From NCBI GenBank assembly GCA_947177395.1, contig CAMWUI010000027.1, positions 1-39,287 of the forward strand: a stretch of 39,287 nucleotides of DNA, given 5' to 3'. A program made the translations under genes and the position numbers. The notes beneath the pieces are model-generated. The model made no database searches. It was not told the origin of the DNA and saw nothing but the letters and a program-made list of their open reading frames with translations. How positions within the stretch are numbered: position 1 is the first letter of the stretch; every line of letters begins with the position of its first letter. This DNA comes from an uncultured Paraprevotella sp. (GTDB lineage Bacteria > Bacteroidota > Bacteroidia > Bacteroidales > Bacteroidaceae). This document shows positions 1 to 31,278 of this stretch, in pieces.

Positions 1-95
1 TGAAGATGCGGCCGCTGTCCCGGTCGCTGGTGGCGGCCGGCGTGAAGAAGGTGCATACGACGGAGGGGAACAGGTATCTGGTGGTGCAGAATTAG
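1..95 (+). CDS. C-terminal tail of an unidentified protein (partial)
   Basis: The frame beginning at base 3 stays open to the TAG at 93-95 and encodes about 30 residues, ending in the motif TTEGNRYLVVQN. The tail is basic and the DNA is clearly more GC-rich than the following 2 kb. The sequence vaguely recalls the winged-helix tails of VirE/primase-type Bacteroides proteins, but too little is present to name it. A 7-bp hairpin (124-130 with 139-145) follows 30 bases downstream and could end its transcript. Confidence 0.5.
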   Translation, partial: KMRPLSRSLVAAGVKKVHTTEGNRYLVVQN

Positions 96-8037: not shown

Positions 8038-9525
8038 ATGGAACGGCTTATTTCATTATATAAAGAAACTTTCGGTCACGCCCCTCTTCAAACGGAACTT
8101 CTGCCGGGAGCCGGCAGCAACCGGTGTTACTACCGCCTGTACGGAGAGGCGGAACCAGAAACCGTTATCGGTGTCATCGGGACTTCACCGGACGAGAATA
8201 AAACTTTCATCTATTTGTCTGAACATTTTTCCCGTTTGCAGTTGGCCGTCCCGCAGGTGTTGGCTTCGTCAACAGACAGCTTGTGCTATCTCCAGACCGA
8301 TTTGGGCTGCCGGTCTCTTTTCGATGCCGTAAGCCAGGGACGTAAATCAGGCGGGCATTATTCGGAGAACGAGAAAACCCTGTTGGGCCGTACTATTGCT
8401 GCACTACCAGAGATACAGATATGCGGTGCCCGCGGACTTGATTTTTCCCGTTGCTATCCTCAGCCGGAGATGGATGAGACAAGTGTTTTATTTGATCTCA
8501 ACTACTTTAAATATTGTTTTCTGAAAGCTACGGAAGTGGATTTTCATGAACTGAAGCTGGAAGCATCTTTCCGGAATATGGCTCGCGAACTGACAGCCGA
8601 ACGACAAGAGGCGTTTCTTTACCGCGACTTCCAGGCACGCAATGTCATGCTTGATGCCAAGGACAATCCTTTTTTCATCGATTTTCAGGGCGGGCGTCGT
8701 GGACCGGTGGAGTATGACGTGGCAAGTTTTCTGTGGCAGGCATCGGCACGTTATCCGTCTGATCTGCGCGAAGAACTTATTACGGTGTATATAGATTCGT
8801 TACGCCGGTACATAGATGTGGATGAACGGAAATTCCGGTCGAGACTCAGGAAGTTCGTCCTCTTTCGCACTCTCCAGGTGCTGGGGACATACGGTTTCCG
8901 TGGCTATTTTGAACGGAAGAAACATTTTCTCGACAGCATTCCTTCGGCCATCCGCAACCTGCGGGAATTGTTGGCGGAGGATGCCTGCTCCGATCTGTAT
9001 CTCCGGCAAGTACTGACACACCTGACGGAATGTCCTCAGTTTACGGAAACTTCACAGAAGAAATCCGGCACTCCCACGGCCTCACGTTATGATGGAAAAG
9101 GACCGTTGAAAGTGCGTATTTTCAGTTTCTCTTACCGTAAAGGCATCCCGGCAGACGAAAGCGGCAACGGTGGAGGATATGTGTTCGACTGTCGAAGCAC
9201 ACACAACCCCGGACGTTACGAACCATACAAGAAGCTTACAGGACTGGATGAACCTGTCATTCGTTTTCTGGAGGAAGACGGTGAGATATGTACTTTCTTG
9301 AAAAGTGTCTACCGACTGGCCGAAGCGCACGTGGAACGTTATATCGAGCGCGGTTTCACGGACTTGATGTTCTGTTTCGGATGTACGGGGGGGCAACACC
9401 GCAGTGTCTATTCCGCCCAGCATCTGGCTGAACACCTGCATGCCCGCTATGGTATAGAAGTGACCGTGCACCACCGTGAGCAGGATATTACGCAAACGTT
9501 TCCCGCCGTACCTGATAAAGTATAG
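8038..9525 (+). CDS. AmgK-like sugar kinase fused to RapZ C-terminal domain
   Basis: Residues 1 to about 340 form an aminoglycoside-phosphotransferase-type kinase: catalytic loop LYRDFQARNVML (D197, N202), then FIDFQGGRRGPVEYD with the metal-binding D215. This matches AmgK, the anomeric N-acetylmuramate/N-acetylglucosamine kinase. After a linker (about 335-355), residues 357-481 match the C-terminal half of RapZ: GIPAD, TGLDEPVIRFLE and CTGGQHRSVY (449-458). The P-loop half of RapZ is absent. In enterobacteria the RapZ C-terminal domain binds sRNA and senses glucosamine-6-phosphate; here it may sense an amino sugar. A MurU-like gene follows 25 bases on. The sugar specificity is inferred from that context. 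Confidence 0.8.
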   Translation: MERLISLYKETFGHAPLQTELLPGAGSNRCYYRLYGEAEPETVIGVIGTSPDENKTFIYLSEHFSRLQLAVPQVLASSTDSLCYLQTDLGCRSLFDAVSQGRKSGGHYSENEKTLLGRTIAALPEIQICGARGLDFSRCYPQPEMDETSVLFDLNYFKYCFLKATEVDFHELKLEASFRNMARELTAERQEAFLYRDFQARNVMLDAKDNPFFIDFQGGRRGPVEYDVASFLWQASARYPSDLREELITVYIDSLRRYIDVDERKFRSRLRKFVLFRTLQVLGTYGFRGYFERKKHFLDSIPSAIRNLRELLAEDACSDLYLRQVLTHLTECPQFTETSQKKSGTPTASRYDGKGPLKVRIFSFSYRKGIPADESGNGGGYVFDCRSTHNPGRYEPYKKLTGLDEPVIRFLEEDGEICTFLKSVYRLAEAHVERYIERGFTDLMFCFGCTGGQHRSVYSAQHLAEHLHARYGIEVTVHHREQDITQTFPAVPDKV

Positions 9526-10335: not shown

Positions 10336-11073
10336 CTATTCCTCTTTGCGGAGGTATATAAATCGTGCCAATCCGTAGACATAGCGGCGGAATCCCGGCC
10401 GGTAGGCCAACAATTGCCGGAACCATCCCATTCGCAATCCCATAAAGCGTACAACAGCTCCAACCAAAAACATAGCCAGAAGCGTGCCTACTCCGATGAT
10501 GTGCCATTGCCATGCGCCAAAAAATCCATAGCATGCAACAATTCCGCATGCCACGAGTGTCACATCAACCACAATTTTCACTTTAGGAAATTCAATACCC
10601 GACACACGACTCACGGCTACAGGAAATCCTTCGCCGGGCATTGTCACACTGCCGCAGCAAACCTCCATTGCGATGCCAACACCAAGAATCATGCACCCAG
10701 CCAGTTGGGCTGCCACCTTTTGCCACAGAGTTGCAGGCACAAGCCAGGTCGTAAGTGACATACTCGCGTCAATGAGGGTACCGAAGACGAATCCTATGAC
10801 AAGCTGAAACAGTTGTACGAACTCAAAACGGCGGCGCAATACCAGTATTTGCCCGAAAACAAGCAGGAAATTCATTATGTAGGTGTATTGTCCGATGGTC
10901 AGTGCCGTTGTTTTACCATACGAACCGGCGGTTTCGAACACATAGGGCAACACACTGATTACACTTGACCCCAATTGGGAACGCACGCATACGGCTACCC
11001 CTAATGTCATCACGAACAATGAAAAAAGCAATAATAAATGCTGCCAGCAAAATGAAATGGCTTTTTCTTTCAT
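10336..11073 (-). CDS. YczE/DUF6198-type integral membrane protein
   Basis: A 245-residue protein with about six hydrophobic helices. It begins MKEKAISFCWQHLLLLFSLF and contains the GVAVCVRSQLGSSVISVLPY segment and a repeated GSVTMPGEGFPVAVS-type loop seen in the YczE/YyaS/YitT group of membrane proteins. Function is unknown; the group is sometimes suggested to be transport-related. It converges on the MurU-like gene, with only 44 bases between the two stops and no clear terminator. The last residues (LRKEE) are charged and cytoplasmic. Confidence 0.7.
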   Translation of the reverse strand: MKEKAISFCWQHLLLLFSLFVMTLGVAVCVRSQLGSSVISVLPYVFETAGSYGKTTALTIGQYTYIMNFLLVFGQILVLRRRFEFVQLFQLVIGFVFGTLIDASMSLTTWLVPATLWQKVAAQLAGCMILGVGIAMEVCCGSVTMPGEGFPVAVSRVSGIEFPKVKIVVDVTLVACGIVACYGFFGAWQWHIIGVGTLLAMFLVGAVVRFMGLRMGWFRQLLAYRPGFRRYVYGLARFIYLRKEE

Positions 11074-11142
11074 ATCTCTGTATCTTTTTACCTAAACTTC
11101 ACATAAATGCCCCTTTGCATGATAAGGGAAATTAATATAATG

Positions 11143-11150
11143 CAAAGATA
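11143..11150 (-). promoter_or_regulatory. -7 promoter box of the YczE-like gene
   Basis: The minus strand reads TATCTTTGC, matching TAnnTTTG, and would give a leader of about 65 bases. Confidence 0.55.
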
Positions 11151-11470
11151 CAAAAAAATAAGCATACACATGTCGATTGATTTTATCATGCACAATGATA
11201 CATTGTCTGTTTCTTGAAATGAGCGAGAAAAGATGACTTTTCACCTTTTTTACGTCTTTTGTTATATACCATATTTTAATATCTGCAAACCTTGTAATAA
11301 ATTGGCGTTTACCAAAACCTCAGACAAGGTTCATTCCGCAGAAGCCAGATTTTATGTGAATCCGGCTCTACGTTTAGGATGGGGGCTCTGATTTCGATGC
11401 GTCCTGTTTGTTTTTATTATATTTTATCTAACGGGAATTGCACATTTTAATAAAGTGCTTTTTGAGATAT
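11151..11470. other. Intergenic stretch with two stacked hairpins
   Basis: No gene is supported here. AACCTTGT (11288-11295) pairs perfectly with ACAAGGTT (11324-11331), enclosing a smaller TTGG/CCAA stem. AGCCAGATT (11343-11351) pairs with AATCCGGCT (11359-11367) with one mismatch. No TAnnTTTG box was found on either strand next to them, so a structured RNA is only a possibility. Confidence 0.3.
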
Positions 11471-11585
11471 TAACGAAGCACTGTTTCAGGGGTTAAAACA
11501 GTGCTTCGTTAGTAGCTCAATCAGTGCTTCATTACACCCTCAATCAGTGCTTCGTTGAGGTGTAATAAAGCACTGATTGAAGGTC
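11471..11585. repeat. Array 1: five 23-bp units with an invertible core
   Basis: Five consecutive units of exactly 23 bases start at 11471, 11494, 11517, 11540 and 11563. Units 2-4 carry the core CAGTGCTT at unit positions 6-13; units 1 and 5 carry its reverse complement AAGCACTG at the same positions. Flanks TNA at the start are kept in all units, and TT follows the core at position 16-17 or nearby. Because of the flips, adjacent units form long inverted repeats: a perfect 15-bp stem (arms begin AACGAAGC and end CTTCGTT) and a 22-bp stem with one mismatch. The array lies between the terminator of the DUF4270 gene and the YczE-like promoter. Twenty-three is not a multiple of three, so it is not coding. 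Confidence 0.85.
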
Positions 11586-11628
11586 AAAAAAAGTGGAGCG
11601 AAAAACATCGACAGTCTTCGACGCTTTT

Positions 11629-11649
11629 CGACAGGTTGCACTCCTGTCG
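11629..11649. repeat. Small perfect hairpin near array 1
   Basis: CGACAGG (11629-11635) pairs with CCTGTCG (11643-11649) around a 7-base loop. It lies in a stretch with repeated TCGAC words. Role unknown. Confidence 0.4.
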
Positions 11650-11732
11650 TGTTGTATCTTACAAAACTCTCAGATGCCTCAAGGCTATTTCCACTTAAAA
11701 ATATTTGCGGTGAAGTTTGTTTTCCTTTATAC

Positions 11733-11775
11733 AAAAAGCCATCTCTTGACCCGCGTTGAGTTTGAGATGGCTTTT
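11733..11775 (-). terminator. Terminator of the glycogen synthase-DUF4270 operon
   Basis: AAAAGCCATCTC (11734-11745) and GAGATGGCTTTT (11764-11775) form a perfect 12-bp stem with an 18-base loop, 16 bases past the DUF4270 stop. On the minus strand the stem ends in a T-run; it could work in both directions. Confidence 0.8.
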
Positions 11776-11790
11776 ATATAGTCGTGAAAG

Positions 11791-13236
11791 TTATTTGTTG
11801 AACTTGCTGTAAATAACCTGCAATGGAATGGGGACAACCGGTTTCTGGGTTTCCGGATCAGTACCTCCGACCAAACGGACACTGTTCAAACCTAAATTGT
11901 TTGTGACACTGACTTGATTGCCATAACTGTTACTTGTAACATTCACCGGAATCAGAACTACTTTATTCCAGTCCGGGTTTGCATCTTCCCACTGACTTTC
12001 ACTCAAACCGGATGCTTTCGATTCATTACGTCTTTCGTTCATGCAATAGGCTACAAGACGGCTGATATTGGAATATGTATAACCATTATATTGAGCATTA
12101 TAGGTGGTTATATAAGAGGTTTCGTTATCTGCCACTTTTTTATTTTCGAAGAAAGAATACATATCTTTCTTACGTACCATTAACAGGGTGGGGGGAATAC
12201 CTAACGAGAAATCGCTGTTTACCGTATTATTATAACGTGTGAACATTATTTCAGCCTTGTTGATACTGTCGTTTTCATGCCCCTGATAAATGTCATTCAC
12301 AGGCAAGGTAACTTCAGTATAGGCTCCGGCGGGCGTTTTCAGCAATGTAAAGTCGTTTCCGACGGCTTCTGACAACAGACGGTCGATACCGTTGTTCTCA
12401 AAACGGGTGTTCTGTATGACCTCTGGAGTGGCTGCAAATCTGCTTACACCGACCAGATTTTCTTCACTCGAATCCGTTTTATACGAAAAATATATGCTGA
12501 GCGTACTGATGTTCAGATAAAACATCGTGCCGTCTCCGTCGGTCAACCTGAAATAGAAACCGGGACAGACGTGATGAGCAAAACTATAGGAATCCTTGAA
12601 ATAGGCCGGATTCTCATAATATTTGTTCAAGATGAATGTACCGTATTCTTTAGGAAGCATGATACGGATGTTGTTATAGTAAGAGCTACTTGTCAGCGTA
12701 CCGTAGGGCACAGTGTAGTCATACGGGGAAATCATCTTCTGGGCTAAAGAGGTAGTCCGATGCGGATTGACGTATTTCTCCAGTTTGACATCCGTATAAT
12801 ACAGCGTGTCTTCACGAGGAACATTGAGTGTATCCAACTCGTAAACGCTCATTTTCATCGCATTGGTAGGATCACCATAGAAGTTTTCGTAATAAAGCCG
12901 TATTTCCACAGAATCCGCTTCAATCTCCCCCCGTCCATTTTTTACCATCTGTTCATAATCCGGCAATGTATAATTCTCGAAAGTGTGGAACAGAGCCAGG
13001 AATTCTGCTTTGATACGCGTCTGGGTCTCCGGATCCGTTACCTGACCGAAATAACATGTCGTGTTGTCGCCTAACACAGAGTCTGCTTTTATCGTTCGGG
13101 TGGATGCCTGAAATTCAGCAAAGGAAACGGCAATATCGTCGGTTTCCGTATAAATTCCCAAGGATGCCGTGTCTTCGTCACATGCAACCAAAGCAACGCC
13201 TACCGCCCACAGAAGCCAGATTCGCTTAAAACTCAT
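11791..13236 (-). CDS. DUF4270 surface lipoprotein
   Basis: The 481-residue protein begins with a lipoprotein signal, LLWAVGVALVAC, with the lipid-attachment Cys at 19. The residues after it, DED, resemble the acidic lipoprotein export signal that sends lipoproteins to the outer surface in Bacteroidetes, so surface exposure is likely. The first mature stretch (TASLGIYTETDDIAVSFAEF) and the following ADSVLGDNTTCYFGQVTDPETQT match the DUF4270 family, whose role is unknown. It lies 35 bases downstream of the GT5 gene on the same strand and ends at a strong terminator, so the two form an operon. The same neighbours (GT5, panC, panD) are common in Bacteroides as I recall. Confidence 0.85.
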   Translation of the reverse strand: MSFKRIWLLWAVGVALVACDEDTASLGIYTETDDIAVSFAEFQASTRTIKADSVLGDNTTCYFGQVTDPETQTRIKAEFLALFHTFENYTLPDYEQMVKNGRGEIEADSVEIRLYYENFYGDPTNAMKMSVYELDTLNVPREDTLYYTDVKLEKYVNPHRTTSLAQKMISPYDYTVPYGTLTSSSYYNNIRIMLPKEYGTFILNKYYENPAYFKDSYSFAHHVCPGFYFRLTDGDGTMFYLNISTLSIYFSYKTDSSEENLVGVSRFAATPEVIQNTRFENNGIDRLLSEAVGNDFTLLKTPAGAYTEVTLPVNDIYQGHENDSINKAEIMFTRYNNTVNSDFSLGIPPTLLMVRKKDMYSFFENKKVADNETSYITTYNAQYNGYTYSNISRLVAYCMNERRNESKASGLSESQWEDANPDWNKVVLIPVNVTSNSYGNQVSVTNNLGLNSVRLVGGTDPETQKPVVPIPLQVIYSKFNK

Positions 13237-31094: not shown

Positions 31095-31278
31095 GATAAC
31101 TGATGCTACAGTCGTATGATAACTGATGCTACGGTCGTATGATGACTGATGCTACAGTCGTATGATGACTGATGCTACAGTCGTATGATGACTATTGTCA
31201 CAGTCTTATCATAACTGTTGGTACAACCTCATCATTGCACTCGGCACACTAATAGCATAACTGTTAAGACGGTCATAT
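31095..31278. repeat. Array 2: eight 23-bp units decaying toward padR
   Basis: Eight consecutive windows of exactly 23 bases start at 31095, 31118, 31141, 31164, 31187, 31210, 31233 and 31256. The first four are nearly identical, sharing the core CTGATGCTAC(A/G)GTCGTAT. Units 5, 6 and 8 keep the frame (ACT near the start, often AGT or GGT later, TAT or CAT at the end) but diverge, and unit 7 is weak. In the best units ACTG and CAGT form a small inverted repeat around six bases. The array lies between the gap terminator and the padR promoter, is not coding (period not divisible by three), and has the same period as array 1. Confidence 0.85.

Follow-up and report, generated by a model that had tools for sequence, protein, structure and literature searches.

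The window, that is, the whole stretch of 39,287 nucleotides analysed here, carries between a DUF6198 gene and a DUF4270 gene an array of 23-bp units that is followed by a tail (Table 1). Relatives of the DUF4270 protein were from Bacteroidaceae in 12 of 13 records, at 36-42% identity, and the host is probably a member of that family from the herbivore gut. Seen from the DUF4270 gene, the element lies beyond a hairpin that is a possible terminator of that gene; the terminator scan did not list this hairpin, the loop of which is too long for that scan. The tail contains CGAC motifs about 10 bp apart, a conserved ..CGTATCTTGCAA-like end and a terminator-like hairpin reported by the terminator scan at 11629-11649 (+).

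Table 1. Features of the array locus and its neighbouring genes, in window coordinates.
Feature	Position	Strand	Remark
DUF6198 gene	10336..11073	-	element upstream of its start
Array gap	11074-11790		between DUF6198 and DUF4270 genes, 717 bp
Slot 0, degenerate unit	11448..11470	+	core AAGTGCTT at 11453-11460
Slot 1, 16-bp block reversed (AACGAAGCACTGTTTC)	11472..11487	-	paralogue L025 forward at same slot
Slot-1 spacer AGGGGTT	11488..11494	.	identical in copies of both orientations
Slot 2, forward block	11495..11510	+	
Slot 3, forward block	11518..11533	+	
Slot 4, forward block	11541..11556	+	
Slot 5 and its spacer	11559..11580	-	inverted copy (22 bp, 95%) of 11517-11538
Tail	11586..11666	+	common, whole or partial, to dispersed copies
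Hairpin 3' of DUF4270 gene	11734..11775	-	12-bp perfect arms, 18-nt loop
DUF4270 gene	11791..13236	-	3' end towards element

The array in the window

An earlier, sequence-only reading of this locus had described five units in a 23-bp register, three with the core forward and two with its reverse complement, and this arrangement was confirmed. The core CAGTGCTT starts at 11499, 11522 and 11545 and the core AAGCACTG at 11476 and 11568, all in one common 23-bp register. A sixth, degenerate slot had been missed; its core starts at 11453, and the pitch is 23 bp irrespective of orientation. The spacing also held against shuffling: none of 2000 shuffles contained any 23-bp core pair, compared with four pairs observed in the gap, and the dinucleotide-shuffled gap held two cores at most per shuffle. 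The alternative hairpins expected from such units are present, with 15-bp perfect arms at 11472-11486 and 11496-11510 and with 22-nt arms that are 95% complementary.

At gathering score, Rfam gave no match at the array locus, and the only match in the whole window was the FopS small RNA (RF04319, 507-577, 84.8 bits). A CRISPR array was rejected, as unique spacers are absent and the array spacers are 7 bp long and recur between copies. A coding array was rejected as well, the period of 23 bp not being a multiple of 3.

A dispersed family in the genome of the window

The window array belongs to a dispersed family and is not a lone locus. The window's own genome (G000; 2.65 Mb, 72 contigs, 87.7% complete) contains at least 14 arrays, on contigs C1, C4, C5, C6, C13, C21, C23, C24, C25, C26, C27, C31, C53 and C54, together with a tail-only copy (L034) on C5. 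A 711-bp query gave no match in 17 other genomes of the genus. The copies were divided into subfamily i (L021-L026) and subfamily ii (L027-L033), with ungapped array identities of 0.77-0.89 within i, 0.95-0.99 within ii and 0.61-0.68 between i and ii. The tail is present, whole or partial (L029), in 13 of 13 aligned copies and, by eye, beside the C13 array, and a short leader is common to some subfamily-ii copies only. No left-side partner of the conserved tail end was detected (17-mer, up to four mismatches, left boundary undefined), that is, no terminal inverted repeat was found.

Ten copies, selected through BLAST matches, which favour ungapped relatives, align across 218 columns without a gap when the truncated L029, L032 and L033 are left out. 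The tail is also free of indels in this alignment, so indel-free evolution is not peculiar to the array; possible reasons are constraint on the element as a whole and a recent origin of the copies. Left-end units are missing from L032 (two) and L033 (three). Fifty of the 62 distances between neighbouring cores in clusters are 23 bp, while 46 occurs five times and 69 once; one core (C6:28134) lies 62 away and off register, and the five other distances pertain to other clusters.

By a simple ORF caller, the copies of this family (family A) are dispersed and intergenic, with the exception of L025, where a 139-aa ORF overlaps the tail. All six subfamily-i copies have their tail side towards a gene 3' end, once that of a tmRNA and once that of tRNA genes.

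Two CAGTGCTT cores in the same orientation, separated by a gap of 5..35, were searched for in 201 genomes of the taxonomic family. All 18 matches in G000 were at 23 bp; outside G000 there were 24 matches in 17 genomes, seven of them at 23 bp (two each in G134 and G115, one each in G100, G091 and G068). Pairs with the second core inverted occurred at two places in G000 and one in G134, all at 23 bp, and eight other genomes matched this pattern at other spacings. G134, which belongs to another genus, has a single copy of a six-unit 23-bp array with five forward units and one terminal inverted unit. A stricter pattern applied to 295 genomes of the order found the family in G000 only. A 23-bp repeat of genus g22, CAGTGCTTGATGAATATATGTGT (G115:C58:1128-1181 and G100:C109:8470-8500), has only the octamer in common with it.

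The sequence-only reading had proposed comparing the orthologous locus in close strains, where missing periodicity would count against the array. TRF found no such array in the 1.5-kb DUF4270 3' flank of 14 genus relatives, the nearest relative's flank containing a run of N, and the window's neighbouring gene was not found in these flanks either. Formally this outcome goes against the array, but it does not refute it, because the neighbouring gene was not found there and the array belongs to a dispersed element limited to one species. The 3' flank of one DUF4270 orthologue (L179, genome G001) holds a different 22-bp array, TTCTCCTGAGATTCGAAAACCG.

Unit-by-unit comparison

Ninety units were stacked, six each from 13 loci, G134 and C13, and 12 were dropped as too weak. 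The 78 scored units comprised 51 that were all-forward, 12 all-reverse, seven palindromic and eight mixed. Slot 1 is reverse in L021-L024, forward in L025 and intermediate in L026, and L021 and L022 match L025 there at 6 of 16 positions directly and at 15 of 16 as the reverse complement. The spacer AGGGGTT follows slot 1 in L021, L022, L023, L025 and L027-L030 and is one or two bases off in L024 (AGGGGGT), L026 and L031; among the paralogues, opposite block orientations at one slot adjoin an identical spacer. Forward and reverse pairs are never mixed within a unit in subfamily i and G134, except in slot 0 and in slot 1 of L026, which indicates that the 16-bp block flips whole.

The inversion had been assigned to an 8-base core between flanking bases that keep their orientation. 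The flipping block is instead a 16-bp quasi-palindrome, not the 8-bp core alone, and the statement on the flanks holds in part. At close range the four bases on either side of the core flip too, and in the last unit the inversion takes in the spacer as well (22-bp arm), whereas the 7-bp slot-1 spacer does keep its orientation among paralogues and, in the second family described below, a 14-bp core flips between similar flanks.

Subfamily ii has a slot-3 core that is partly inverted between unflipped arms, a slot 5 that is the perfect palindrome CATTCAGTACTGAATG, and spacers 3-4 and 4-5 that by eye appear inverted relative to subfamily i. None of the family-A arrays showed a core of two Y halves (AAGCGCTT). 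The mixed units indicate that half-blocks exchange too and that clean inversion does not explain every difference.

A second, unrelated family in a third genus

An array at 8987-9118 of locus L131 is a 132-bp element of exactly six 22-bp units. Its genome, G020, belongs to a third genus and contains at least 40 copies of this element (63 candidates, 40 scored), which is confined to G020 among 121 genomes of the taxonomic family. Thirty copies were fetched, and the 28 that keep the frame were compared, L212 and L227 being dropped for one indel each. Slot 2 reads AACTTCCGTTAGTT in 10 of the 28 and its exact reverse complement in nine; the left flank is mostly CCAT or CAAT and the right flank ATTG, ACTG or TCTG. 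A tree built without slot 2 requires at least three orientation changes, with modest supports. Slot 3 is AACTAACGGAAGTT in 20 of the 28 copies, which makes conversion from slot 3 an alternative for one direction of change. The slot-2 inversions reproduce in an independent family the core observation of the sequence-only reading: in each of the two unrelated families, blocks of 14-16 bp flip coherently around a dyad axis that stays in place.

Whole G020 elements are 64-80% self-complementary, and five copies, taken on both strands, had folding energies of -44 to -67 kcal/mol compared with shuffle means of -21 to -27. Among 30 elements, 15 lie between convergent genes, 11 between codirectional and one between divergent genes, with three unclear; convergent gaps thus make up 15 of 27 classifiable contexts compared with 18 of 80 in the background (p 0.003), which was drawn from other genomes of the taxonomic family with a slightly different ORF cut-off. 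The convergent or 3' bias may reflect a function at transcript ends or in DNA topology, or just tolerance at these sites.

A rival reading is an RNA element, a transcribed array that would fold into hairpins with inverted units as stems and serve as a 3'-end stabiliser or bidirectional terminator. Arrays are placed past gene 3' ends, many G020 copies open with an A run and close with a T run, copy L213 folds into a single long hairpin, and the window tail has its terminator-like hairpin. Consensus folds of the minus and plus strands have nine and six pairs, respectively, that changed on both sides, but seven of the nine lie between slots 3 and 5 and amount to a single contrast of two subfamilies, which arm homogenisation predicts as well. 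The low folding energy of inverted repeats arises by construction, flips at slots 1 and 2 rearrange stem pairing, and the window array ends without a T run. Overall, we consider an RNA element distinctly unlikely.

Arrays of 22-24 bp in the wider group

The proportion of TRF arrays with a period of 22-24 bp was 19 of 36 in the sample from the window's own genome, eight of 19 in the genus, 17 of 35 in the family and eight of 26 in the order (1.43 Mb in total), compared with two of seven in shuffled sequence and none of four in E. coli (200 kb only). This excess indicates that a pitch of 22-24 bp occurs frequently in these Bacteroidales. Palindromy as a property of the whole class is not supported. 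A dyad test on consensus units of 22-24-bp arrays was not significant (5 of 51 at p<0.05); a scan of the 1.43 Mb for three dyads in a row gave three places at 22-23 bp and one at 33 bp, compared with five of assorted periods in three shuffles, numbers too small for use. In the spectrum of inverted-repeat distances, multiples of 22 did not stand out clearly, and a small excess near 65-69 (19 places) was set aside, being mostly unrelated hairpins.

An inversion-tolerant period search, of the kind that the sequence-only reading had suggested for relatives, flagged in-register inverted units in eight of 55 arrays compared with five of 1100 shuffled regions. With the period at 22-24 or double that, the flagged arrays were one of 22 in the own-genome sample, none of eight in the genus, six of 17 in the family and one of eight in the order. 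By eye, clear unit-level inversions were confined to both L131 arrays and one L146 array (inside an ORF by the simple caller), and the remaining flagged arrays were flanking inverted segments. A 22-bp array of the GTACTTTGCGGCAAGTACTCGA type in G012 (L081, 4198-4263), with a sister array at 12903-12968, appears by eye to have one core inverted in place; the detector did not flag it.

Gene contexts throughout rest on the simple ORF caller. Since 32 of the 55 arrays had to be dropped from the orientation count, an intergenic location is not established for the wider class; 15 of the dropped arrays lay at stretch ends and 17 within an ORF, and in the family sample the latter applied to 10 of 17 arrays. 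None of the 17 classifiable arrays in the own-genome, genus and family samples lay in a divergent gap, compared with 59 of 238 in the background (p 0.015); in the order sample two of six classifiable arrays did.

Relation to known repeats

The sequence-only reading knew of no described repeat class with this behaviour, which proved too strong, as BIMEs and BrickBuilt come close. Porphyromonas gingivalis, the host of BrickBuilt, is of the same order as the window's organism, and REP/BIME elements often lie 3' of genes. According to the available portion of its description, BrickBuilt is a minisatellite MITE that shares with the window family a 23-nt tandem unit and a dispersed, intergenic, species-limited distribution, with 19 copies in one strain compared with at least 14 in G000 (PMC4596501). 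Compared by description, both also have a tail beside the repeats, a predicted fold-back and a variable unit number. In the same portion, BrickBuilt repeats are direct, whereas window-family blocks flip in register; indels amount to 0-6% within elements, whereas the ten aligned copies have none; and 12-nt terminal inverted repeats are given, whereas the search here, in which the left boundary of the copies was undefined, found none.

BIMEs consist, in the text available to us, of regularly spaced REPs in alternating orientation (PMC2817692), and excerpts on BIME, REP and REPIN elements describe palindromic units, regular spacing, alternating orientation and an extragenic location, as in the window family (PMC2817692, PMC3733652, PMC3116915). 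Unlike BIME/REP, the window and G020 families have an uninterrupted 22-23-bp pitch and no consistent GTAG/CGTC tag, these motifs occurring in 5 and 2 of 90 family-A unit windows and in 10 and 14 of 180 G020 units. A BIME/REPIN-like element mobilised by a Y1 (RAYT) transposase would account for dispersed, regularly spaced quasi-palindromic units in both orientations, but no Y1_Tnp was found in G000 (87.7% complete) or in G020, and the one in G134 occurs where the DNA query gave one array only. Such mobilisation is highly improbable.

Template-switch inversions of spacers in yeast are likewise in place, length-neutral, about a dyad and accompanied by arm homogenisation; in the part of that report available, however, they concern isolated inverted repeats in genes, whereas here they concern slots of a dispersed bacterial array (PMC8604942). 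The available parts of the BIME and BrickBuilt accounts contain no in-place block inversion on a fixed 22-23-bp register across paralogue slots (PMC2817692, PMC4596501), and no description of a 22-24-bp Bacteroidetes array with flipped units was found in the open-access literature searched. The flipped-unit arrays are a variant of known minisatellite MITE/BIME-like repeats, seen in two unrelated families, and the mechanism behind the flips is inferred.

Origin and possible role of the flipped blocks

The element is most likely non-coding and scattered mostly through 3' intergenic space. We favour, with a probability of roughly 55%, a MITE-like fold-back minisatellite that consists of some six quasi-palindromic blocks, spaced at 23 bp, and a tail; its blocks would flip through template switching about fixed dyads. 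Since every block forms a short inverted repeat by itself and adjacent blocks match each other as inverted repeats, single strands could fold back. A replicating polymerase could then switch template at the fold or onto the sister strand, copy a block off the opposite strand and switch back. The block would be inverted about its own axis, which would leave length and register unchanged, and the same process, or exchange from slot to slot, could homogenise the arms and yield perfectly palindromic blocks. With blocks that are short dyads and inverted neighbours that form longer fold-backs, constant-length flips about fixed axes would be expected. In yeast, the available part of the report describes template switching between inverted-repeat arms that homogenises the arms and inverts the spacer in place (PMC8604942). 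Some flips could stem from conversion between slots, as the flipped allele exists in another slot in both families, and the direction and timing of flips, read here from paralogues rather than from a comparison of strains, are provisional.

Of the mechanisms offered by the sequence-only reading, template switching at quasi-palindromes thus fits best, and a two-sided protein site remains its rival. The fixed pitch and the absence of indels suggest, more weakly, selection for a structure or protein array readable from either side. An array of protein sites would place a two-fold symmetric (dimeric) protein on each block, about two helical turns apart, with spacing selected and orientation neutral. 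The centre spacing of exactly 23 (or 22) bp in either orientation, the half-site-like composition with blocks built from interchangeable halves, and the ten aligned copies without indels all agree with this, and a plasmid centromere study reportedly offers a precedent in heptads repeated in either orientation. However, 23 bp does not divide evenly by 10.5, the binding protein is putative, and the sequence differs wholly between species while the pitch is kept, so a conserved reader would need sequence laxity. We regard protein sites as a rather unlikely explanation, albeit one to be weighed seriously.

Extension of the in-place inverting blocks to a general class in Bacteroidales is tentative, and we would sooner doubt it than accept it. 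The members of such a class would be species-specific and lie beyond gene 3' ends, each with about six dyad blocks spaced at a constant 22-23 bp. In-place inverting would persist because the reader, whether an array of two-fold symmetric proteins or a fold-back of DNA or RNA, heeds pitch and dyad axis rather than orientation, and the sequence would turn over completely between species while the architecture stays. If spacing is selected and orientation free, this would suggest that major gut bacteria have an unknown protein or structure that reads such arrays. The matching slots of many paralogues provide a natural record of in-place inversion. With such copies, template-switching events, which as a rule are deduced one at a time, could be tallied across a bacterial genome.

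Other repeats

An unrelated 23-bp array (GATAACTGATGCTACAGTCGTAT, 5.7 copies) lies at 31095-31225 of the window, with the GAPDH gene on one side and the PspC-domain gene on the other; this type is probably dispersed too, as locus L069 has a similar array at 237-333. Beside the family-A element, loci L024, L028-L031 and L033 carry a MITE-like mosaic of several hundred bp. Its components are one array of 23-bp period (AATACTATCC type), one of 24-bp period (AGTGAACAGC type) and a unit, about 400 bp long, that has inverted ends of about 35 bp and 11-bp AATGGTTCAGC repeats. Locus L147 has two long imperfect hairpins about 250 bp apart (84-165 and 337-418) with nested inverted arms, a pair that we take to resemble recombination sites.
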